Part shown: piece after piece, positions 17,055 to 34,773 of the stretch
Numbering within the stretch: position 1 is the stretch's first letter
Layout: each line of letters starts with the position of its first letter
Assembly: GCA_002919235.1 (NCBI GenBank)
Contig: PKEX01000033.1
Coordinates: 1-64,000, forward strand
From: Clostridia bacterium
Lineage (GTDB): Bacteria; Bacillota; Limnochordia; DTU080; RSA5
Length of the DNA stretch: 64,000 nucleotides
Direction: 5' to 3'
Program-made: the position numbers and the translations under genes
Notes under the pieces: generated by a model
Database searches by the model: none
What the model was told of the DNA's origin: nothing
The model's input: the letters and a program-made list of their open reading frames with translations, nothing else

Positions 17055-18746
17055 CTAGTTCTCGTCCACGGTCCCGTAGACCGTCCGCATCACTTCCCGC
17101 ACCGACGTCTCGCCCGCCAGCACCCGCCGGATCCCGCTCTGCCGCAGGCTCACCATGCCGTTGGCCGCCGCGGCCGCGGCGATCTCATCCTCCGGCGCGC
17201 CGCACTGGATCAACCCGCGGATGGTCTTGTCCACGACCAAGACCTCTTCAATCGCCAGCCGGCCGTGGTAACCCGTATTCCGGCAGGCGGGGCAGCCGAC
17301 GGGCTCATACAGGACGGCGTCCTCCGCGGCCGGTCCCAAGAACCGGCGCTCGAGCGGATCCAGTTCGGCCACCGGCCGCCGGCAGCGCACGCACAGCTTG
17401 CGGACGAGCCGCTGGGCGATGATCCCGATCACCGTACCGGCCACCAGGTAGCGCTCGACGCCCATGTCCGTCAAGCGCCCCAGCGTCGCGACGGCGCTGT
17501 TGGTGTGCAGCGTGCTCAAGACCAGGTGGCCCGTGAGCGCCGCCCGCACCGCGATCTCGGCCGTCTCCTCGTCCCGCATCTCGCCCACCATGATGATGTC
17601 CGGGTCCTGGCGCAGGACTGAGCGGAGCGCGCTGGCAAAGGTGACGCCCGTTCCCCGGGGGCTCACCTCTACCTGGTTGATCCCTTCCATTCGAACCTCG
17701 ACCGGATCTTCGATGGTGATGATGTTCACGTCGGGCGTGTTCAGCGCGCGCAGGAACGCATACAGCGTCGTCGTCTTTCCGCTCCCGGTGGGCCCGGTGA
17801 CGAGGATCATCCCCTGGTGCCGGGCGAGCATCGCCCGGATGGCACTGGCACTCTCCGGCTGGAAGCCCAGAGCCTCGATGTCCATGACTTCGCTCTGGAG
17901 CGGCAGGAGACGGAGGACCACTTTTTCGCCGTATATGGTAGGCAGCGTCGACACCCGCACGTCCACGGGCGTATCGCCAAACGCCACCCGGGTCCGGCCG
18001 TCCTGCGGCGTCCGGCGGTTGGTGATGTCCAGGTTGGCCATCACCTTGATCCGCGAGACGACGCCCCCCGCCAGCCGCTTGGGCAGCTCCATCGCCTGCT
18101 GCAGCGCGCCGTCGACACGAAAGCGAACGATGGTCTCGTCTTGCCGCGGTTCGATGTGCACGTCCGACGCCCGCGCCTCGACGGCCTGCTCCAGGATGAG
18201 GTTCACCATCCGGACGCTGGGCGCGTCGCCGATCTCGTCCTCCGGCGCTTGAACCTCCTGGCGCTCCTCGTCCTCGCCGTACTGCTCGATGATGTCGCGC
18301 GCCCGGCCCGGCACGCCCATGAGGCGCTGGTACGCCCGGCGGATCTCGCCCGGAGTCGCCACCAGGGGGCGGATCTCAAGACCGGTCAAGGCCCGGACGT
18401 CGTCCAGCGCGTGGATGTTGTATGGATCCGCCATGGCGAGGTACAAGGCCCCGTCTGCCAGCTTGACGGGAAACACGAAGTGGCGCCGGATCACTTCGGG
18501 CGGGACCAGGGAGAGCAGCTGGCCTGAGTGGTCGACCTCTTCCAACCGGAGTCGGGGCAGTCCGGTCTCCTCAGCCAAAGCCGCGGCCACTTCATCTTCG
18601 GTCACGTAGCCGAGATCCACCAGGATCTCGCCGATCCGCTCATTCCTGCTCTTTTGGAGCCGGAGAGCCTCCTCCACCTGGTCGCGGCTGACCAGCCCGG
18701 CTTCGACCAAGAGGTCTCCCAGGCGCTTGCGCGCCCTTGCGGCCAT
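17055..18746 (-). CDS. pilB: Pilus extension ATPase PilB
   Basis: PilB (563 aa) has an N-terminal MshEN-type domain (RLGDLLVEAGLVSRDQVEEAL), which in relatives can bind c-di-GMP. The ATPase core has ASDVHIEP, Walker A GPTGSGKTT at about 318-326, the Asp box RQDPDIIMVGEMRD and the His box HLVLSTLHTNSA. Two Cys pairs (CVRCRRP and CPACRNTGY) form the zinc motif. ATG 18746 was chosen because GGGGAG lies just upstream. Confidence 0.95.
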   Translation of the reverse strand: MAARARKRLGDLLVEAGLVSRDQVEEALRLQKSRNERIGEILVDLGYVTEDEVAAALAEETGLPRLRLEEVDHSGQLLSLVPPEVIRRHFVFPVKLADGALYLAMADPYNIHALDDVRALTGLEIRPLVATPGEIRRAYQRLMGVPGRARDIIEQYGEDEERQEVQAPEDEIGDAPSVRMVNLILEQAVEARASDVHIEPRQDETIVRFRVDGALQQAMELPKRLAGGVVSRIKVMANLDITNRRTPQDGRTRVAFGDTPVDVRVSTLPTIYGEKVVLRLLPLQSEVMDIEALGFQPESASAIRAMLARHQGMILVTGPTGSGKTTTLYAFLRALNTPDVNIITIEDPVEVRMEGINQVEVSPRGTGVTFASALRSVLRQDPDIIMVGEMRDEETAEIAVRAALTGHLVLSTLHTNSAVATLGRLTDMGVERYLVAGTVIGIIAQRLVRKLCVRCRRPVAELDPLERRFLGPAAEDAVLYEPVGCPACRNTGYHGRLAIEEVLVVDKTIRGLIQCGAPEDEIAAAAAANGMVSLRQSGIRRVLAGETSVREVMRTVYGTVDEN

Positions 18747-18806
18747 TCGCTGCTCTCCCCTGTCTTTAGCTAACAACTTCCTCGCTGGGCGTAGCTGCTG
18801 GCCTTA

Positions 18807-23198: not shown

Positions 23199-24253
<1,055 letters not shown>

Positions 24254-24257
<4 letters not shown>

Positions 24258-25246
24258 GCGAACTTCACCTCGGCCACTTCGCCGCTCTTGGACACGTAAT
24301 GGCAGGCGACCCGGTGGCCCGGAGCGCCCTTCTCCTCCAGCACGGGCTCTTCCGCCGCGCAGCGGGCGTCGGCCAGCGGGCAGCGGGGGTGGAACCGGCA
24401 CCCGCTGGGCGGCGAAAGCAAGTTAGGCGGCGTCCCGGGAATCGAGACGATCGGCGCCCTCTCCGCCCGGATGTCAGGAAATGCTTGCGTCAGCCCTTGC
24501 GTGTACGGGTGCTTCGGGTTGACCAGCACCTCTTCCACCGGCCCGTACTCTACGATCTTGCCGGCGTACATCACCGCCACGTCGTCGCAGGTCTGCGCCA
24601 CCACCGACAAGTCGTGGCTGACCAGGATCATGGAAAGCCCCAGGCGCTGCCTCAGGTCCGAGATGGCCTTCAGCACCTGCGCCTGCACCATCACGTCCAG
24701 CGCCGTGGTGGGCTCGTCCGCGATGACCACCTCCGGGTTGCACGCCAGAGCCATGGCGATGACCGCCCGTTGCTTCATGCCGCCGCTGAACTCGTGCGGG
24801 TAGTGGCTGTAGCGGGCCGGGTTGATCCCCACCATCTCCAGCAGCTTCTTAGCCCGCTCCACCGCCTCTTCCTTGGTCGCCTTCTCGTGGGCCAGGATCG
24901 CTTCGGCGATCTGGCTGCCCACGGTGAGCACCGGGTTGAGGGCGTTCATGGCCCCTTGAAAGACCATGGCCAGCCGCTTCCAGCGGACGCCCTTGCGAAA
25001 GGCCTCTTCCTCCATGGCCATCAGTTCGTCGCTGCCCAGGCGCACCGAGCCGCCCACCACCCGCCCGTTGGACGGCAAGAGGCGCAGCAGCGTCAGCCCC
25101 AGGCTGGACTTGCCGCAGCCCGACTCGCCTACCACCCCGAGGGCGCGCCCCGCCTCCAGGGTAAAGCTGATATCGTCGACAGCCCGCACCTGACCGTTGC
25201 GGGTGTGGTAGTACATCTTGAGGTTTTCCACAACCAACTGCGCCAC
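24254..25246 (-). CDS. Peptide ABC transporter ATPase (OppD/DppD type)
   Basis: ATPase of 330 aa: Walker A GESGCGKSS, VFQGAMNALNP, signature FSGGMKQR, Walker B VVIADEPTTALD, and the C-terminal GCRFHPRCPLADARC motif. It pairs with the next ATPase as a heterodimer. The GTG start at 25246 gives MAQLVVENLKMYYH, the usual start of the fold. The frame runs further upstream but is not homologous there. Confidence 0.93.
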
Positions 25247-25307
25247 AGCGCCCACCTGCCCCTTTCCCAGCTCGCGCCGCCAGCCGCCCCGCTGGCGCCC
25301 GTGCGGC

Positions 25308-26795
25308 TTACCGCTCTTGGTTTCTGCGGTTGAGGATGTCGTCGAGCGTGTTGCCGATAAACACAAAGGCCATCGCCAGGATGGTCAGGGCGAGGCCGGG
25401 CGGCAGGATCCACCACCACGCCAGCTCGCCGAAGGCGCCAAAGCTCTTGGCGTTCTGCAGCATGCGGCCCCACGTCGGCACCCTCGGGTCGCCGAATCCG
25501 AGGAAGCTCAGGGTCGCTTCGCTGACGATGGCTCCCGGCACCAGCAGCACCAGCGAGGCGAAGACCAGCCCGAGCACGTTCGGGAGGATGTGGGCCCGCA
25601 TGATGTAACCGGGCGTAGCCCCGGCGGCGCGCGCCGCTTCGACGAAGGTCCGCTCCCGCAGGGTGAGCGTCTGCGACCGCACCAAGCGGGCGACGCTCAT
25701 CCACGAGAACAGCGCGATGAGAATGATCAGGTTCCAAAGGCTCTTGCCCAGCACCGCCACGAAGACGATCAAGATGGGCAGGAACGGGATGGAGATCAGC
25801 ACGTCGACGACCCTCATGAGCACCTCGTCGACCCAGCGGCCCAGGTACCCGCTGACGATCCCCACCACCGTCCCCACCACCACGGCGATGACGGCCACCA
25901 CGAAGCCGATCAGCAGCGACGTGCGGGTGCCGTAAAGGAATTGGGCCCACAGGTCCGCTCCCAGGTGATCGGCGCCGAGCACGCCGTGGAGCTTGCCGGG
26001 GATGCGGAAGCGGCTCTCACCCAGCGTAAAGAGAGCCTCTCCTCCCTCGCCGGCGTTCGCCGTCAGCTCCAAGACTACCCGGTACTCGCCCTGCGTGTTG
26101 ATGAGCTCTGCGGCCAGGTTCGCCAGCGGGCGAAAGCCGAGCCGCATCTTGAGCTGCATGTCGCGGGAGTCGACCCGCTGGGTGGTCCACCGCACTTGGT
26201 TGCGCAGGGACCGGGACGTCCACAGATCGTAGGCCCGCCCGTCCGCCGTTTCAAAGCGGATGACGGCCTGTCCGGTGGCGCCGCCCTCGCCGGTGAAGGC
26301 GTACGGCACCTGGAGGATAAAGGTATCCGGCGGATTCGAGCGGTACTCGAACGCGTGCTCCAAGACGAGCCGCGCCGGCCCGGGACCTGTGGTACGCACC
26401 TCCATCACCCGCTGGCCATCCCGCTCGCCCCACTCCACCACCATGTTGTCAGCCGTCCGGATGTCCCATTCTTCCAGGAGGAACCGGTCGACGGTGACGG
26501 GGTCCATGCGGTAAGCCGGAAAGTACGACATCCAGGCCGGCCGGGCCATCCCGTCCGCCAGGAACTGATCCTGCAAGGGATCGTACGGCGTCAGCCAGGG
26601 AGCCGCCAGGCCCAGGAACAAGAACACGAGAAAGATGCCAAGCCCCAACATCCCCCGGGGAGAACGCCGGTACTCCTGCCAGACCTCCCGGAGAGTCCCG
26701 GGGCGGCGGCCGTTGTTCTTGCGAGCGATGGGCGCCGGGCCGGCGGCGGGCGTCTCCCGGGGCGTGGATGAAAGCGAATGGCTCACGGCACTCAC
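25308..26795 (-). CDS. Peptide ABC permease, DppC type, with large external insertion
   Basis: The permease (495 aa) has TM1 at about 48-70 and the DppC core from GVLGADHLGADLWAQFLYG onward, including EAARAAGATPGYIMRAHILPN. About 200 residues lie between TM1 and TM2 (from about 75 to 275), rich in beta-strands, where ordinary DppC (about 300 aa) has a short loop. That part would face outside the inner membrane and may dock the unusual binding protein. It starts with GTG overlapping the permease B stop. Confidence 0.9.
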   Translation of the reverse strand: MSAVSHSLSSTPRETPAAGPAPIARKNNGRRPGTLREVWQEYRRSPRGMLGLGIFLVFLFLGLAAPWLTPYDPLQDQFLADGMARPAWMSYFPAYRMDPVTVDRFLLEEWDIRTADNMVVEWGERDGQRVMEVRTTGPGPARLVLEHAFEYRSNPPDTFILQVPYAFTGEGGATGQAVIRFETADGRAYDLWTSRSLRNQVRWTTQRVDSRDMQLKMRLGFRPLANLAAELINTQGEYRVVLELTANAGEGGEALFTLGESRFRIPGKLHGVLGADHLGADLWAQFLYGTRTSLLIGFVVAVIAVVVGTVVGIVSGYLGRWVDEVLMRVVDVLISIPFLPILIVFVAVLGKSLWNLIILIALFSWMSVARLVRSQTLTLRERTFVEAARAAGATPGYIMRAHILPNVLGLVFASLVLLVPGAIVSEATLSFLGFGDPRVPTWGRMLQNAKSFGAFGELAWWWILPPGLALTILAMAFVFIGNTLDDILNRRNQER

Positions 26796-27757
26796 CTCAG
26801 TCGGATGCGCGGGTCGACCAGGCCGTACACCAGGTCGGCCAGGAGATTACAAATAAGCACGGCCAAGGCAATGACAAAGAAGGACGCTTGAACCACCGGA
26901 TAATCCTGCTGCAGGGTAGCGTCGATCAGGTACCGCCCGATTCCGTACAGCGAAAAGATGGACTCGGTGATCACTGCGCCCGTAATCAGGCCCGGAAGCG
27001 AGAGGAAGATCAACGTCACGATGGGCGGGAGCACGCTCCGGAAAGCGTGGCGGTAGAGCACTTCCCGCTTCGTCAGCCCTTTTGCCCGGGCGGTGAGCAC
27101 GTAGTCCTGCCCCAGGGCGCCCACCACGTTGTTGCGGGTGTACAGGTACCAGGACCCGTACCCGCTCAGGCTGACGGCGGTCACCGGCAGCACCAGGTGG
27201 TAGATCCGGTCGATCACCGTCGGCCAAAACCCTGTCGGAGGGGGAACGCTCATCGTCCCGCGGATCGGAAAGATCGGCCAGAAGTACCCAAAGGTGAGCA
27301 GAAGCAAGAGGCCGATGAAGAAGCTGGGCATCGCATTCAGGAAGAGGGAGACGCCGGTGACGCCCGTCTCAAGGCGGCTGCCCTGGCGCGTGGCCATGGC
27401 GATCCCCAGCACCACCCCGACCACCACGTTGATCACGAACGAGGTGCCGAGCAGCATGAGCGTATTGGGCAGCCTGGCCAAGAGCTCTCCCAGCACCGGC
27501 TGGCGTGTGGTAAAGGACCGGCCGAAGTCGAAGGTGATCATGCTTTTCAAGTAGAGGAGATACTGCGTCCAAAGAGGCTTGTCCAGGCCGTACCTCTCGC
27601 GCAGGAGCTGCCGCACTTCCGGCGTGAAGTCCGGGCTCAGAATGAGTGAGACCGGATCCCCGGGCATGACCCGGAAGATGACGAAATTCAACGTCATGAT
27701 GACGAACAGTGTGAGCAGCGCATAGCCCACCCGGCGCCAAAAGTACGCGCCCGTCAT
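26792..27757 (-). CDS. Peptide ABC permease, DppB type
   Basis: A six-helix permease of 321 aa with the usual start YFWRRVGYALLTLFVIMTLNF, the PGDP motif, and the EAA-like loop YVLTARAKGLTKREVLYRHAF. Length is normal. It lies downstream of the binding-protein gene after a 295-bp gap holding several hairpins, which would allow lower expression of the membrane components than of the binding protein. Confidence 0.94.
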   Translation of the reverse strand: MTGAYFWRRVGYALLTLFVIMTLNFVIFRVMPGDPVSLILSPDFTPEVRQLLRERYGLDKPLWTQYLLYLKSMITFDFGRSFTTRQPVLGELLARLPNTLMLLGTSFVINVVVGVVLGIAMATRQGSRLETGVTGVSLFLNAMPSFFIGLLLLLTFGYFWPIFPIRGTMSVPPPTGFWPTVIDRIYHLVLPVTAVSLSGYGSWYLYTRNNVVGALGQDYVLTARAKGLTKREVLYRHAFRSVLPPIVTLIFLSLPGLITGAVITESIFSLYGIGRYLIDATLQQDYPVVQASFFVIALAVLICNLLADLVYGLVDPRIRLR

Positions 27758-28052: not shown

Positions 28053-29750
28053 TTACCGGTCGAGCCCGGCCCAGAAGTCCTCGTAGCGCTCCACCCGGAC
28101 GTACTCGCCGGGGACGTACTCCTTGAAGACGAACGGGCCAGTCCCGATCATCTTCGTGAGCCCGGGCACCGTCGGATGCGGCTCCTTCCAAGGCTCGAAC
28201 TCGTCGAACTTCTCGACGCCTTCCCAGATGTGCTTGGCCAGGAAGCCGGCGACGTTGTAGGTGTGCCAATAGCTCACGTTGTCGAAGTACACCGTGATGG
28301 TGTAGTCATCGTGCACTTCGGCGTGGCTGTAGTTGTCCCAAGCCGCCTTGTACTTGGGCACCTGCTGCTCCTTCAGGTAGTCCATGGTGAACTTGATGTC
28401 ATGGGCCGTGAAGGGCACGCCGTCGTGCCAGGTGATGTCCTTGCGCAGGTAGTAGGTGACCTTGGTGCCCTCGTTGCCCTCGGGCGTGGTCCAGGTCCCC
28501 ACCTCCCAGCGCTCCGCCTCCCAAGGCATGTCCTCGTTGTTCTCAGGCTCCGGAGCGATGAGGCCGGGGCCGTAGACCAAGCCGAAGATGCGGGCGTCGT
28601 ACGCCGAGGTGCCCACCAGGATGTTCAGGTTCCCTGGCTCCTGCTCCAGCACCCAGCGGATGGTGCCGCCCCGCTCCTGGTTGACCAGGCGGATGTTCAG
28701 CGGCGTCCAGATGCTGTCCTGGGCATTGCTGGCCGCGCCGAAGCCCAGGTGCGGCACGTACCCGGTGACGATGTCGGAGCGGAACGCGTCCATGTACGGC
28801 CGCGAGTAGAGCGGGATGTAGGGCAGGAGCTCGGAGAGCATGGCCTGCGCCTCGTAGGCCGCCTCGAAGGCGTCCTCGTAGGTGCGCGGCGTCCAGACCT
28901 TTTCGGCCAGCGCGTCGTACTCGGGGTCACGCAGACCCGGGGTGTTGTCGCCGCCGTCCACGTCGAAGTTGGAGTGGAACAGCGTATAGAGGTGCGTCGG
29001 GAACCGGCCCAGGCTCCAGGCCAGGGCGTACATGTCGAAGTTGCGGCCGCCGTCCACCTCGTTGCTGATGCGGTCGACGATCACGTTGAAGTCCAGCGGT
29101 TCAGCCTTGATCGGAAGCCCGATGGACTGCGCCGCCTCGGCGACCATCATGCCGAGCATGGCCGAGGTGGCCGCCACTTCCATGGTGGGCGTCATAATGG
29201 TCATCTCACGCATCCGCTCGCCCGTGTTGGGGTCAATGCGGACGCCGTCCGGCCCCATCACGTACCCGGCCTCGTCCAGAATCTGCTTGGCCAGCTCCGG
29301 ATCGTACGGATACGTGTCGACGTCGGGGTTATAGAACGGCGACGCTGGGGGCACGAACTCCGCCAGCGGCAGCATGTAGCCCTGGAAGAGCGAGAGGATG
29401 ATCTCCTCGCGGTCGATCACGTGTGCCAGAGCCTGGCGGACCACCGGGTCGGAGAGCGGCGGGCGCCGCATGTTGATCCCGAGGTAGAACATGTGGTAGC
29501 CCGGGCTGACCGTGATGTCCACGTTGGGCTCCGCCTCAAGGCGCTGGATGTGCGCAGGCTGGGCCAAGCCCGGGAGCACGTGGATGTCCCCCCGCAGCAG
29601 GGCGATGATCTGCGCCTCTTGGTCCATAATGATGGGCAAGATGATCTCGTCAACGTGCGGCCCCCTGGTGCCCCACTCGACGCCCTGCGCCAGCGCGCTG
29701 CCGCTCACCAGGAGCGCCAGGAGGATGACAAATGTCAGTATCCGACGCAA
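28053..29750 (-). CDS. Peptide-binding protein (SBP family 5), apparently circularly permuted
   Basis: The exported protein (565 aa) starts at TTG 29750 (AGGAGGT 8 nt upstream) with signal MRRILTFVILLALLVSGSA and an LAQ cleavage site, no lipobox. Residues about 30-355 correspond to the usual C-terminal part of family-5 binding proteins (PHVDEIILPIIMDQEAQIIA; LSDPVVRQALAHVIDREEI; PYIPLYSRPYMDAF). Residues about 361-565 correspond to the usual N-terminal part (TIRWVLEQEPGNLN; YYLRKDITWHDGVPFTAHD; GTGPFVFKEYVPGE) and end at YEDFWAGLDR. In normal proteins DFWAG leads straight into P-x-VDEI, so the two ends here meet exactly at that site. It is the first gene of the operon. Confidence 0.85.
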   Translation of the reverse strand: MRRILTFVILLALLVSGSALAQGVEWGTRGPHVDEIILPIIMDQEAQIIALLRGDIHVLPGLAQPAHIQRLEAEPNVDITVSPGYHMFYLGINMRRPPLSDPVVRQALAHVIDREEIILSLFQGYMLPLAEFVPPASPFYNPDVDTYPYDPELAKQILDEAGYVMGPDGVRIDPNTGERMREMTIMTPTMEVAATSAMLGMMVAEAAQSIGLPIKAEPLDFNVIVDRISNEVDGGRNFDMYALAWSLGRFPTHLYTLFHSNFDVDGGDNTPGLRDPEYDALAEKVWTPRTYEDAFEAAYEAQAMLSELLPYIPLYSRPYMDAFRSDIVTGYVPHLGFGAASNAQDSIWTPLNIRLVNQERGGTIRWVLEQEPGNLNILVGTSAYDARIFGLVYGPGLIAPEPENNEDMPWEAERWEVGTWTTPEGNEGTKVTYYLRKDITWHDGVPFTAHDIKFTMDYLKEQQVPKYKAAWDNYSHAEVHDDYTITVYFDNVSYWHTYNVAGFLAKHIWEGVEKFDEFEPWKEPHPTVPGLTKMIGTGPFVFKEYVPGEYVRVERYEDFWAGLDR

Positions 29751-29800
29751 AACTACCAACCTCCTATCCACATAAAAGGGATGGACCACGCGGTTTCAAT

Positions 29801-29814
29801 CCAGCTTTAGCTGG
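29801..29814. promoter_or_regulatory. Palindrome upstream of the binding-protein gene
   Basis: CCAGCTTTAGCTGG is a 14-bp near-perfect inverted repeat (arms CCAGCT/AGCTGG) about 50 bp before the TTG start. Its position suits an operator, but no matching regulator is known to me. Confidence 0.35.
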
Positions 29815-30605: not shown

Positions 30606-31018
30606 AACCCGTAAGTCACGGCGTCGCCCGTCTGGAACAAGCCCGCCGGCGTCACGGTGCGGCATACGGGGTCGCTCAGCACATCACATCTGAAGGTCAC
30701 CTCAAAGCCGAGATCGTGACGCTGGCCGCAGCAGGGTTAGAGAGCAGCAACCCGCAGGGGAAAATTTGGCCGAAGGTTTCACACGCACCACGTGCTTTTC
30801 GAATCGATCGAGTCACGACGCACCCCGAATCCTTGCACCATCGCACCATCGCACCTTCCCCCACCGACGCAACACCCGCACACGGTCTCCCGTCGCCGCA
30901 CTGGGTAGCGCTTCACCACTCAACGCCTCAACGGCCGAAGTCCCCGCTCGCGGCGAGCCCGTCCTGACCCGGCGCCGGCGCCATCACTCCATCACCAAAT
31001 CAAAAGGAGGCAGTGTCG

Positions 31019-31960
31019 ATGAGTAGCCGCGTGTTGATTCCGGCGAACCCGAAGCTTTTGCGACTGGCGGGACTCGTGCTCTGTGTGGGGGTGCTCATCG
31101 CCTGCTCGGCGATGGCGTGGGCGCAAGGGTACGCGAATCCCCACCTCCTGGTGGAGCCGGCCTGGCTTGCAGAGCACCTGGACGATCCCAACATCCGCAT
31201 CGTCGACGTGCGGGGCGACGCCCTCTACCTGAGGGGCCACATTCCGGGTGCCGTCTCGCTCGACGGGACCCAGGCGATCAACGACCCCAACTCTGAGATC
31301 GCCGGGCACTTGCTCGGCCCCGAAGAGTTTGAAAAGGTCATCCGCGGCCTGGGCATCAACGACGACACCATCGTGGTGGTCTACGACCAGTCGAGTTCGA
31401 ACGCGGCCGCCCGGCTGTTCTACGCCCTCGAATACTACGGCCACAAGGACAAAGTGCGCATCCTCAACGGCGGGCTCGCCGCCTGGACCGCCGAGGAGCG
31501 CCCGCTGGAGTCGGGCCGGCGCGACGTGGCTCCCGGCAGCTTCACCGCCCGGCCCAACCCTGAGCTCCAGGCGGACGCGGAGTACGTGAAAGCGCAGATC
31601 GGAAAAGAAGGCGTCGTCATCCTGGACGTGCGGTCCGAAGGGGAGTACCTGGGCACGGACGTGCGCGCCGCACAGGGCGGCCACATCCCCGGCGCGACGC
31701 ACCTAGAGTGGACCGTGGCCGTGGAGGACGGCTCGGTGCAGAGGTTCAAGCCCGCCGAGGAGCTCTGGCAGATCTTCGGCGCCGCAGGCGTCTCTCCCGA
31801 CGCCGAGATCATCCCCTACTGCCAGACCAACGTCCGCGCGTCGCACACGTACTTCGTCCTGCGTTTGCTGGGCTTTGAGAAGATCCGCCCCTACGAGGCT
31901 TCGTGGGCCGAGTGGGGCAACCGCGACGACGTGCCCATCGTGGCGGGAAGGGAGATCTAA
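31019..31960 (+). CDS. Exported two-domain thiosulfate sulfurtransferase (rhodanese)
   Basis: A 313-aa protein with a signal peptide (LAGLVLCVGVLIACSAMAWA) and two rhodanese domains. The first (IVDVRGDALYLRGHIPGAV) lacks the active cysteine; the second ends in the loop YCQTNVRAS, with Cys as persulfide carrier. It should transfer sulfane sulfur from thiosulfate outside the cytoplasmic membrane. ATG 31019 has AAGGAGG 8 nt upstream. It is followed by the thiosulfate-type transporter, suggesting extracytoplasmic thiosulfate handling. Confidence 0.92.
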   Translation: MSSRVLIPANPKLLRLAGLVLCVGVLIACSAMAWAQGYANPHLLVEPAWLAEHLDDPNIRIVDVRGDALYLRGHIPGAVSLDGTQAINDPNSEIAGHLLGPEEFEKVIRGLGINDDTIVVVYDQSSSNAAARLFYALEYYGHKDKVRILNGGLAAWTAEERPLESGRRDVAPGSFTARPNPELQADAEYVKAQIGKEGVVILDVRSEGEYLGTDVRAAQGGHIPGATHLEWTVAVEDGSVQRFKPAEELWQIFGAAGVSPDAEIIPYCQTNVRASHTYFVLRLLGFEKIRPYEASWAEWGNRDDVPIVAGREI

Positions 31961-31976
31961 AGAAGGGAGATCTAAA
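31947..31976. repeat. 15-bp tandem duplication at the rhodanese-tsuA junction
   Basis: GAAGGGAGATCTAAA occurs twice in tandem, with a partial third copy (GAAGG). The first copy contains the rhodanese stop codon. The second copy and partial third supply the GAAGG ribosome site of the next gene, so a slippage duplication spaced the two genes. Confidence 0.7.
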
Positions 31977-31981
31977 GAAGG

Positions 31982-33361
31982 ATGAGCCTCAACCACACTT
32001 CCAGCATCTCCGGCGCGCCCGCTGCGGCCCATCCATCCGGCATTCCCCACAGCCCTACCGTCCCTGGCGTTCCTGGCGCCCCGCTCTCCTTTGGGGAGCG
32101 AGCGCGCCAGTTCCACCGCCGCGTGTTCGTCGATTACTGGCCGTACTGGGCGGCCTGCCTGGCGGCGGCGGTGCTCAACATCGTGCTCCTCGCCTACTGG
32201 GGCAGCGCCTGGGGCGTCACCGGCGAGCTCACCCGCTGGGGCGGGCATATCGTCACCGCTCTCGGGATCGACGCCAAGAGCTGGCCGTACTTTCAGGAAA
32301 TCGGCCTTGAGGGGAGCCCGCTCCAGCGCACGTCCGGCTACCTCACCATCGGCATGCTGGGCGGCGCGCTGGTGGGCGCCCTGGTTTCGGGCAACTTCCG
32401 CATCCGCATGCCCCAGCAGCGGCGCCGCCTGGTCCAGGGCTTTGTCGGCGGGCTGCTTTCGGGCTTCGGCGCCCGCCTCGCCATGGGCTGCAACCTAGGT
32501 TCGTTCTTTAGCGCCATCCCCCAGTTCTCGCTGCACGGCTGGCTCTTCATGCTCGGGCTCTTCCCCGGAACGTACCTCGGCGTGAAGCTGGCCGTCCACC
32601 CGTGGGTGATGGGCCCCGCCACCCGGCGCCCCGCCGCCGGACGCCGCCGGGCCGCCCCCAGCACCCGCTGGCAGCCCTACGCCGGCGCGGCGGTGGCCGC
32701 CTTCATCGGCCTGGGCGCGTGGAAGGCCTCCCTGGTCGAACCCGCCTTCGGCGTGCTGCTGCTCTTTGGCACCGGTTTCGGGTTCATCATTCAAAGGGGC
32801 CGGATCTGCTTCACGGCGGCCTTCCGGGAGATGTGGATCACCCGCCAAGGGGAGCTGGCCCGGGCGCTGGCGCTGGGCATGGCCGTCTCCACGCTGGGCT
32901 TTGCCGCGCTGATCTCCCGCGGGATCGGCGGCAACATGCAGGTGGCGAGCCTGGGTGTCCTCGTGGGCGGGATCCTCTTCGGCATCGGGATCGTGCTGGC
33001 CGGCGGCTGCGAGAGCGGCTGGATGTACCGTTCGATGGAAGGGTACGTGCAGCTCTGGATGGCCGGGCTCGGCACCATCACCGGGGCGACGCTGCTGGCC
33101 TGGGCGTGGCACGGCCTCGGCCTCTACGACCTCCTGGTGGCCGGCTGGCCCGCCATCAACCTGGTGGACGCCTGGGGCTGGCCGGGAGCCATCTTTGGCA
33201 CGCTGGCCCTGCTGGCCGCGTGGTATGCGCTGGTCACCTGGTGGGAGAGCCTGCCCAGCCGCCCGGCTTCCACGCCGGCGCACGCGCCGGGCCCGGCCCG
33301 GAAGGCACCGGCCTTCGCGGGCGGTGCGCCGCAGCCGGCCCCGCGGCAGCGCATCCCGTGA
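31982..33361 (+). CDS. tsuA: YeeE/YedE-family thiosulfate transporter
   Basis: A 459-aa membrane protein with about nine to ten hydrophobic helices and the three cysteine motifs of TsuA-like thiosulfate importers: AMGCNLGSFF, RGRICFTAAFRE and LAGGCESGW. A Ser/Pro-rich cytoplasmic N-terminus (about 45 aa) and a Pro-rich C-terminal tail are added to the usual core. A TusA-like gene follows, as in the known yeeE-yeeD/yedE-yedF pairs, where the small protein accepts the imported sulfur. Confidence 0.9.
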   Translation: MSLNHTSSISGAPAAAHPSGIPHSPTVPGVPGAPLSFGERARQFHRRVFVDYWPYWAACLAAAVLNIVLLAYWGSAWGVTGELTRWGGHIVTALGIDAKSWPYFQEIGLEGSPLQRTSGYLTIGMLGGALVGALVSGNFRIRMPQQRRRLVQGFVGGLLSGFGARLAMGCNLGSFFSAIPQFSLHGWLFMLGLFPGTYLGVKLAVHPWVMGPATRRPAAGRRRAAPSTRWQPYAGAAVAAFIGLGAWKASLVEPAFGVLLLFGTGFGFIIQRGRICFTAAFREMWITRQGELARALALGMAVSTLGFAALISRGIGGNMQVASLGVLVGGILFGIGIVLAGGCESGWMYRSMEGYVQLWMAGLGTITGATLLAWAWHGLGLYDLLVAGWPAINLVDAWGWPGAIFGTLALLAAWYALVTWWESLPSRPASTPAHAPGPARKAPAFAGGAPQPAPRQRIP

Positions 33362-33419
33362 CGGAGCTCGCTGCAGGTTCATTTCTTGATAAGAACTTGA
33401 TGAAAGGTGTGAGCGTGCG

Positions 33420-33701
33420 ATGACCCAGCCCATCCAACCCGACCGTGTCCTCGACCTGTGCGGCGAGTGCTGCCCGTACCCGCCCATCCTGACCATGCAG
33501 GAGATCCAGCAGATGAAGCCGGGCGAGGTCCTCGAGGTGATCGTGGACCATCCCCCGTCCGTCACCACGGTGCCCACCGTCGTCACGATGGAGGGCCACG
33601 AGGTGCTGGGCGAGCCGGTGCGCCAGGGGGCCGAGTTCCACATTTTCATCCGGGTGAAGGCGACGGGATCGGCTCCGGCGGCGGAGGCGGCCGGGCAGTG
33701 A
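33420..33701 (+). CDS. tusA: TusA-family sulfur carrier
   Basis: A 93-aa TusA-like protein with the motif LDLCGECCPYPPI, in which the Cys of CPYP would carry the persulfide. Two additional cysteines (positions 14 and 17) precede it, unlike most TusA proteins. The beta-alpha fold is otherwise conserved (MQQMKPGEVLEVIVDHPPS-like spacing), with a short Ala-rich tail. It lies directly after the transporter. Confidence 0.9.
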   Translation: MTQPIQPDRVLDLCGECCPYPPILTMQEIQQMKPGEVLEVIVDHPPSVTTVPTVVTMEGHEVLGEPVRQGAEFHIFIRVKATGSAPAAEAAGQ

Positions 33702-33822
33702 GCTCCGGCCCGCCGGGGCGGCCGCGGAGGCCGGTGACACCCGGCGACGCCCCGAGACAGCCATACCCCACCGCTCTCCCGGCGCGGCACGGCGCCGGAG
33801 CCGAGCGAGGTGAACCGCGTTG

Positions 33823-34773
33823 ATGAACCAGGTGTTGATCCAAGGAAAAGACCGCTGGGTGCTGGCGTTCGTCGTGGTCCTCGTGGGCGTCATGATCGCC
33901 GCCATCGCCCAGACCATCGCCGCCGGCCGGGAAGGGATCGTCCGCCGGGACGCCTGGACGGAGACCGCCCAAGGGCTGGTCCAAGCGCTGCTGGCGGGCG
34001 AGGAGGTCCAGGTGGTCGACGCCCGTTCCGCGGCGGCTTACGAAGGAGGCCACGTGCGGGGGGCGCTCTCCCTTCCCGCCGCCTCCCTGGTCGACGAGGC
34101 GTTCGGTGCGGCGCGGCTCTGGCCCGAGATCATCGCCGCGGTCGCCCAGGCCGGCGTCGATCCGGAGCGGCCCACCGTGGTCTACGCCGCCGATCCCAAG
34201 GACGCCGCGTACGTCGTGTGGGCGCTGCGGGCCGCGGGGCTCGCCGACGTCAAGCTCCTGGCCGGCGGCGTGATGGCGCTGCTCGAAGCGGGAGCACCCG
34301 TGGAAACGGGGCCTGCGGACGCCCGGCCGCGCTCCGTGGACGACTACCCGGGCCGCCAGGCGCCCGCCAAGGAGATCGCCGTCGACCTGGCTGGGCTCTA
34401 CGGGGGCCGGGGCAACCCGGTGCAGCTGGTCGATACCCGGGCTGCGGCGGCGGAGGCCATCCACCTCGCGGGCGCGGCGACGCACGTCGTCGAAGGAAAC
34501 GCCCTGGTGCACGGGGACGGGGTGAAACGCTCGCGCCTGGCGGTGAACAAAGCCCTGAGGCCGCTGGGCAGCGAGACGGCGGTGGTTTACGGCGACGACG
34601 TGCGGGACGCGGCGCTGGTGTGGTGGGGCCTGGCGAGCGAGGGCAAGAAGGCCCAGCTCTTCATGGACGGCTTTGCGCTCTGGCAGGCCAGCGGCCTGCC
34701 CACCCAAGCGGTAGACCGGGCCCCGGCCGCGGCGCAGCCCTCGGGGATGCGGGTCGGTGGCGGCTGCGGTTAA
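33823..34773 (+). CDS. Membrane-anchored rhodanese-like protein without active cysteines
   Basis: The protein (316 aa) has an N-terminal anchor (WVLAFVVVLVGVMIAAIA) and two rhodanese-like domains (VQVVDARSAAAYEGGHVRGA and a second starting NPVQLVDTRAAA). The residues that should be the catalytic Cys are Ala (VVYAADPKDAAYVVWAL) and Gly (VVYGDDVRDAALVWWGL). It is probably a non-enzymatic binding or scaffold partner of the exported sulfurtransferase. The last residues (RVGGGCG) include a lone Cys. Confidence 0.82.
   Translation: MNQVLIQGKDRWVLAFVVVLVGVMIAAIAQTIAAGREGIVRRDAWTETAQGLVQALLAGEEVQVVDARSAAAYEGGHVRGALSLPAASLVDEAFGAARLWPEIIAAVAQAGVDPERPTVVYAADPKDAAYVVWALRAAGLADVKLLAGGVMALLEAGAPVETGPADARPRSVDDYPGRQAPAKEIAVDLAGLYGGRGNPVQLVDTRAAAAEAIHLAGAATHVVEGNALVHGDGVKRSRLAVNKALRPLGSETAVVYGDDVRDAALVWWGLASEGKKAQLFMDGFALWQASGLPTQAVDRAPAAAQPSGMRVGGGCG

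Follow-up and report, generated by a model that had tools for sequence, protein, structure and literature searches.

The window, i.e. the whole stretch of 64,000 nucleotides analysed here (contig PKEX01000033.1 of a Clostridia bacterium assigned to Limnochordia), encodes a rotated member of binding-protein family 5 (SBP_bac_5, cluster C). Its segments N, C1 and C2 are each present in a single copy and run in the order C1-C2-N, whereas the norm of the family is N-C1-C2. It is rather probable that the protein serves an ABC importer of the Dpp/App type, that it acts as a normal trap for a peptide-like solute and that it is docked by an extra domain of the permease DppC.

Chain order, break and fold

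The gene is located on the minus strand at 28053..29789 and encodes 578 amino acids from a GTG at 29789 (an alternative TTG start at 29750 gives 565). Residues 1-35 (29685..29789, minus) form a signal-like stretch, recognised by eye and by a pattern count in relatives; a simple pattern rule finds AxA in the start region of 60 of 83 relatives and a lipobox-like pattern in two of the 83. Export of the protein is predicted, the basis being this signal-like start. Directly behind it the normally C-terminal part (C1 and C2) begins with GPHVDEI and occupies residues 36-372 including the linker (28674..29684, minus), and the normally N-terminal part, from RGGTIRWVLEQEPGNLN to YEDFWAG, ends the chain as residues 373-578 plus the stop codon (28053..28673, minus). 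The junction comprises residues 361-372 (28674..28709, minus), bounded by a conserved Trp that belongs to the former C-terminal end and by the residue preceding RGGTI, which agrees with the short linker described in the first-pass annotation.

The same annotation had claimed that the C-terminal part comes first and the N-terminal part last, and the alignments bear this out. Pfam SBP_bac_5 matches the protein in two stretches, C-part and then N-part (E 1.1e-69, 235.8 bits, cut-off 32.4). Against Escherichia coli DppA, query residues 38-179 correspond to chain residues 204-343 and residues 390-574 to 18-206; profile A1, built from 91 C1-C2-N proteins, aligns with Bacillus subtilis AppA in the same manner (37-348 to chain 212-517, 431-562 to chain 83-209). 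Tandem duplication as the nature of the gene is ruled out by the single copy of each segment, as had also been claimed. A 544-aa open reading frame on the plus strand (28176-29810) runs antisense to the entire binding-protein gene; similar long antisense frames occur along the binding-protein operon and are probably an effect of base composition.

The break had been assigned to the DFWAG/VDEI hinge where the two domains join, and this assignment has to be rejected. According to the domain map of Haemophilus influenzae SapA, domain Ia comprises residues 35-68, 230-312 and 532-561, domain Ib residues 69-229 and domain II residues 313-531 (PMC8519434). Window residue 44 aligns to SapA model position 242 (the numberings may differ by a few), within the 230-312 stretch of Ia, and by this alignment the break is therefore placed inside domain Ia, about 70 residues ahead of the Ia/II crossover, and not at the inter-lobe hinge. 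In structure comparison (Foldseek, VIA) the matches in the rows shown are all family-5-type proteins, each covering one part of the window protein only, and the closest solved relative is the peptide binder AppA. The predicted fold of the permuted chain is that of the usual trap with two lobes.

Conservation and origin of the rotated order

A database search with the window protein scored 413 proteins, of which the best 120 were mapped for N, C1 and C2. The closest among the matches listed, P0003-P0084, all run C1-C2-N (82/82; P0004 is the window's own protein and P0032 is cut short within N). Further down the same listing P0089 is C1-C2-N, P0087 is C2-N-C1 and P0085, P0086 and P0088 are pieces, and in P0090-P0122, again among the matches listed, the N segment comes first. 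A full-length permuted match was found in 17 of the 72 genomes of the class, while in G008 and G009 the gene is divided over two contig pieces; in a sample of the phylum the permuted protein is matched at E <= 1e-60 in 26 of 398 genomes. Source names of the matches are Bacillota and Limnochordales, with one Sphingobacteriaceae, and a scan of genome contigs with the window protein yielded two loci, both bacterial. Because so many independent genomes share the C1-C2-N order, misassembly of the window gene is ruled out. The named relatives are annotated as ordinary substrate-binding or hypothetical proteins, and it can be said that routine annotation conceals permuted family-5 proteins. The permutation had been described as rare; a natural permutation it is, but it is less isolated than supposed, since a large family shares it and a second permutation also exists. 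In three genomes two permuted binding-protein genes adjoin each other (G312:C70, G335:C101 and G379:C125, G379 also at L075).

The second rotation, C2-N-C1, is broken inside the other lobe and is found in archaea and Bacillota. Before tree building, nearly identical rows were thinned out, and of the normal-order rows every second one was kept; in the main tree (101 rows, 464 columns) the segments were reset to canonical order. On this tree C1-C2-N costs two changes owing to one normal-order row, P0261, which falls inside or beside the group. When the C1-C2-N group is held together, the likelihood is slightly better (AU p 0.684); the window's permutation is compatible with a single origin, which is not rejected. 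Forcing C2-N-C1 into one clade is rejected (AU p 6.8e-6), which suggests that this order arose, or was undone, more than once, a result that is model-dependent because the branches are long.

If the window's permutation arose once, it could have done so by in-frame tandem duplication, after which the outer parts were lost. An aromatic residue ahead of a GPxVDE motif near the chain start, together with a YW/FW pair at the chain end, is found in 68 of 81 window-like proteins; this is suggestive of an old junction motif partly kept at both chain ends and thus fits an origin by duplication. A direct duplication intermediate of the window permutation was not seen, the sole tandem duplicate being P0260. 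This protein of 1019 aa consists of two complete normal-order family-5 proteins, head to tail (N-C1-C2-N-C1-C2), and represents the type of intermediate required by the duplication route, yet it is placed elsewhere in the tree.

The DppC insert and its linkage to the permuted protein

The window operon runs SBP-DppB-DppC-DppD-DppF, with two permeases and two oligo_HPY ATPases, all on the minus strand, and this order is kept in relatives. DppB (26792..27757, 321 aa) matches Pfam BPD_transp_1 and BPD_transp_1_N; the ATPases DppD (24254..25366) and DppF (23199..24401), both with provisional starts, match ABC_tran and oligo_HPY. The DppC-type permease (25308..26795, 495 aa, Pfam OppC_N and BPD_transp_1) has a gap of 224 aa from TM1 to the core and contains an insert of 182 aa as cut (26025..26570, minus). 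The insert is predicted to be extracytoplasmic because of its situation between TM1 and TM2; transmembrane and signal features were assigned with simple rules on hydropathy and sequence pattern. By sequence it has no useful match among solved structures (best E 0.24, filamin-C), and neither the window copy nor the L101 copy matches Pfam; the copy of L072 gives weak, sub-threshold matches to PKD and DUF7311 (E 0.015-0.074).

For the comparison of gaps the permuted and normal-order operons were chosen by their binding protein and not by DppC. In short C1-C2-N operons, window included, the TM1-to-core gap is 193-288 aa in 20 of 20; of the 46 normal-order operons measured, 44 show 40-51 aa and the other two (L066, L067) 108-109 aa. 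An insert of about 180 extra residues is thus carried by all 20 permuted operons and by none of the 46 of normal order. The operon table excludes L063, whose contig ends inside dppB; the normal-order operon L127 has no measurable gap, L129 is N-N-C1-C2 with a gap of 41 aa, and four others have no binding protein in reach. L066 and L067 are normal-order operons directly adjoining a permuted operon, and their DppC (L066:8901-10280, L067:10393-12015) has about 65 more residues from TM1 to the core. In C2-N-C1 operons the gap is 41-46 aa in six of seven, and permutation as such therefore does not demand an insert. The seventh, L083 (10605-12395, genome G022), has a DppC with an unrelated, repeat-rich insert of about 280 residues at the same TM1-TM2 place, beta-propeller-like by eye.

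A search of the class for the insert gave 19 genomes with a strong match, 18 of which also have the permuted gene; conversely, of 19 genomes that carry the permuted gene, 18 match the insert strongly. In both exceptions (G007, insert without the permuted gene; G071, permuted gene without a strong insert match) the contig ends in dppB. The locus L095 has a weak insert score of 20. Among the 398 phylum genomes the insert profile, to which 13 of the 26 genomes supplied a row and the other 13 none, matches 27 and the permuted protein 26, all 26 common to both; these counts concern the short type, as genomes with the long type fall below the search cuts. Both features lie on one contig in 25 of the 26 (they are split in G006), the contig of the single insert-alone genome, G399, begins inside dppB, and the permuted protein alone occurs in 0 of 398. 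Fisher's p on genomes is 6e-40; it ignores kinship and is therefore not used as proof. When a tree was built from the DppC core with the insert removed, all 40 DppC sequences from permuted operons fell to one side of a single branch (SH-aLRT 92, not starred). Permuted protein and insert look like one old pair kept together rather than repeated independent gains; as the pair appears to have had one origin, the linkage would be conserved co-inheritance.

A divergent family of proteins of about 830 residues belongs to the same subject. Of the weaker insert matches in the class, 24 reach beyond the conserved tail (start at query position 130 or earlier), and 20 were fetched, G054:C43, G063:C96, G070:C106 and G071:C112 being left out. 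At all 20 loci the DppC gap measures 199-205 aa and DppB has a divergent protein of about 830 aa upstream of it (shorter at contig ends), a pairing of 20/20 that was found through the insert. Comparison of profiles gives the family order as C1 (98.5 %), C2 (92.6 %) and N (89.4 %); taken singly, 9 of 19 proteins show C1 followed by C2, and N reaches 12-16 bits in 3 of 19 with nothing in the rest. Since 14 of these proteins themselves went into the profile behind the "long" label, the label shows family membership, and the C1-C2-N order rests on the profile comparison. Short-type and long-type inserts are homologous (97.5 %, E 6e-12). At the long-type loci (L101-L120) the distance from DppB TM1 to a YGLDKP-like motif is 46-49 aa in the 10 of 20 loci at which it was measured, and mostly 22-24 aa elsewhere.

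Probable mechanism, rival explanations and known systems

According to the favoured reading, the permuted protein would open and close around its ligand in the manner of other family-5 proteins and would deliver a peptide-like solute to the DppB/DppC pair. The substrate is probably peptide-like, because AppA, the nearest solved relative, is a peptide binder. The window protein reached no NCBIfam equivalog cut-off, and neighbouring genes gave no hint of a substrate in ten proteins of L068, L069, L072, L074, L076, L077 and L078: at three of these seven loci the neighbour is DNA polymerase III alpha, and the others are SpoIIE, EPSP synthase, two FAD-type oxidoreductases, a LiaF-like protein, an amidohydrolase and a weak beta-propeller match.

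The P2 loop of MalF, which sits at another place of another permease than the DppC insert, touches the maltose-binding protein during docking. By analogy, the DppC extra domain would likely touch the permuted protein upon docking. It would be placed to do so because it lies in the region that corresponds to the scoop motif of E. coli DppB, a stretch of about 30 residues in the TM1-TM2 region which enters the cleft of DppA (PMC12136057). Scoop and P2 are both permease-borne periplasmic elements touching the binding protein, which resembles the role proposed for the insert; however, the scoop measures about 30 residues and belongs to DppB (PMC12136057), in contrast to about 180 residues in DppC.

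The rotation could instead be a harmless accident inherited with the operon, the DppC domain serving substrate capture or a hold on the envelope. A single origin of the pair would suffice to explain the linkage, and C2-N-C1 operons, working as far as gene content shows, have an ordinary DppC in six of seven. Against this, the pair with its homologous inserts is kept across the large divergence between the short and long families, and among the operons and genomes examined one part occurs without the other only at contig ends, so that we regard a neutral permutation as unlikely. More improbable still is that the rotation was favoured because it moved the anchor-bearing chain end, the bacterial window-like group having later lost its anchor. 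Tethering was raised by the authors of TpMglB-2 for their own permuted protein (PMC4990184), and among database proteins a C-terminal TM-like segment, scored by a simple hydropathy threshold, occurs in 19 of 26 other C1-C2-N and 22 of 24 C2-N-C1 proteins as compared with 27 of 193 of normal order, a count confounded by kinship because many of the anchored proteins carry archaeal names. Nevertheless, such a segment is present in 0 of 82 window-like proteins.

Very little weight can be given to the joining of two normal genes, in the cell or in the assembly. In the tree of C1 and C2 the closest non-permuted row is P0261, which is not the closest for the N-part, and this would fit a chimera; in both the N-only and the C1+C2-only tree, however, the rows closest to the C1-C2-N group include archaeal C2-N-C1 proteins, and this argues against a fusion of unrelated genes. 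The first-pass annotation regarded the gene as a permuted one, and permutation rather than a chimeric join is upheld by the shared order of the independent genomes (with the 82 relatives, the 17 of 72 genomes of the class and its two with a split gene, and the 26 of 398) and by several nearest relatives that the two partial trees have in common.

Beyond the reading of a permuted protein docked by the DppC domain, it is possible, although we put this forward tentatively, that permuted protein and DppC domain form a matched docking pair that defines a distinct importer class and that, with the second rotation arising repeatedly in archaea and bacteria, family 5 represents a natural laboratory of permutation. 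Large multi-domain proteins with a natural permutation rarely come with relatives of every order for comparison. In family 5 the normal order occurs alongside two rotations and a tandem duplicate, and the origin and effects of permutation are therefore testable by comparison within one family. A rotation tied to a new permease domain also makes a concrete prediction on the docking of binding proteins at importers.

The AppA and DppA systems resemble that of the window in the sequence and predicted fold of both parts of the binding protein and in an operon of two permeases and two ATPases. They differ in the order of the parts, and no insert in E. coli DppC is described in the available part of PMC12136057. 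Permutation as such is already known from other types of binding protein. TpMglB-2 (Tp0684; Type Ic, Cluster Bc) is an exported ABC binding protein that is naturally permuted and whose relatives keep its order; it shares natural permutation with the window protein and differs in its Type I sugar-binding fold, its lipoprotein nature and another break, and a linked permease domain is not mentioned in the available part of that report (PMC4990184). The window protein lies outside the Type I (Cluster B) fold and belongs to family 5 by Pfam and by the structural matches in the rows shown. OpuAC and ProX, which bind glycine betaine, are related by a circular permutation found by structure; they constitute another group of binding proteins with less than 24 % identity and are not of family 5 (PMC2395249). 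A search of the literature, with most subscription journals outside its reach, found no permuted family-5 protein and no such DppC domain, and within the literature searched the family-5 case and the DppC pairing appear to be new.

Elsewhere in the window a sulfur cluster (31013-34773) comprises a rhodanese, a Sulf_transp protein of YeeE/YedE type, a short TusA-like frame assigned by eye (33420-33701) and a second rhodanese. On the minus strand, 17058-18803 encodes a type II/IV secretion ATPase (T2SSE with an MshEN domain), a pilus or secretion gene.
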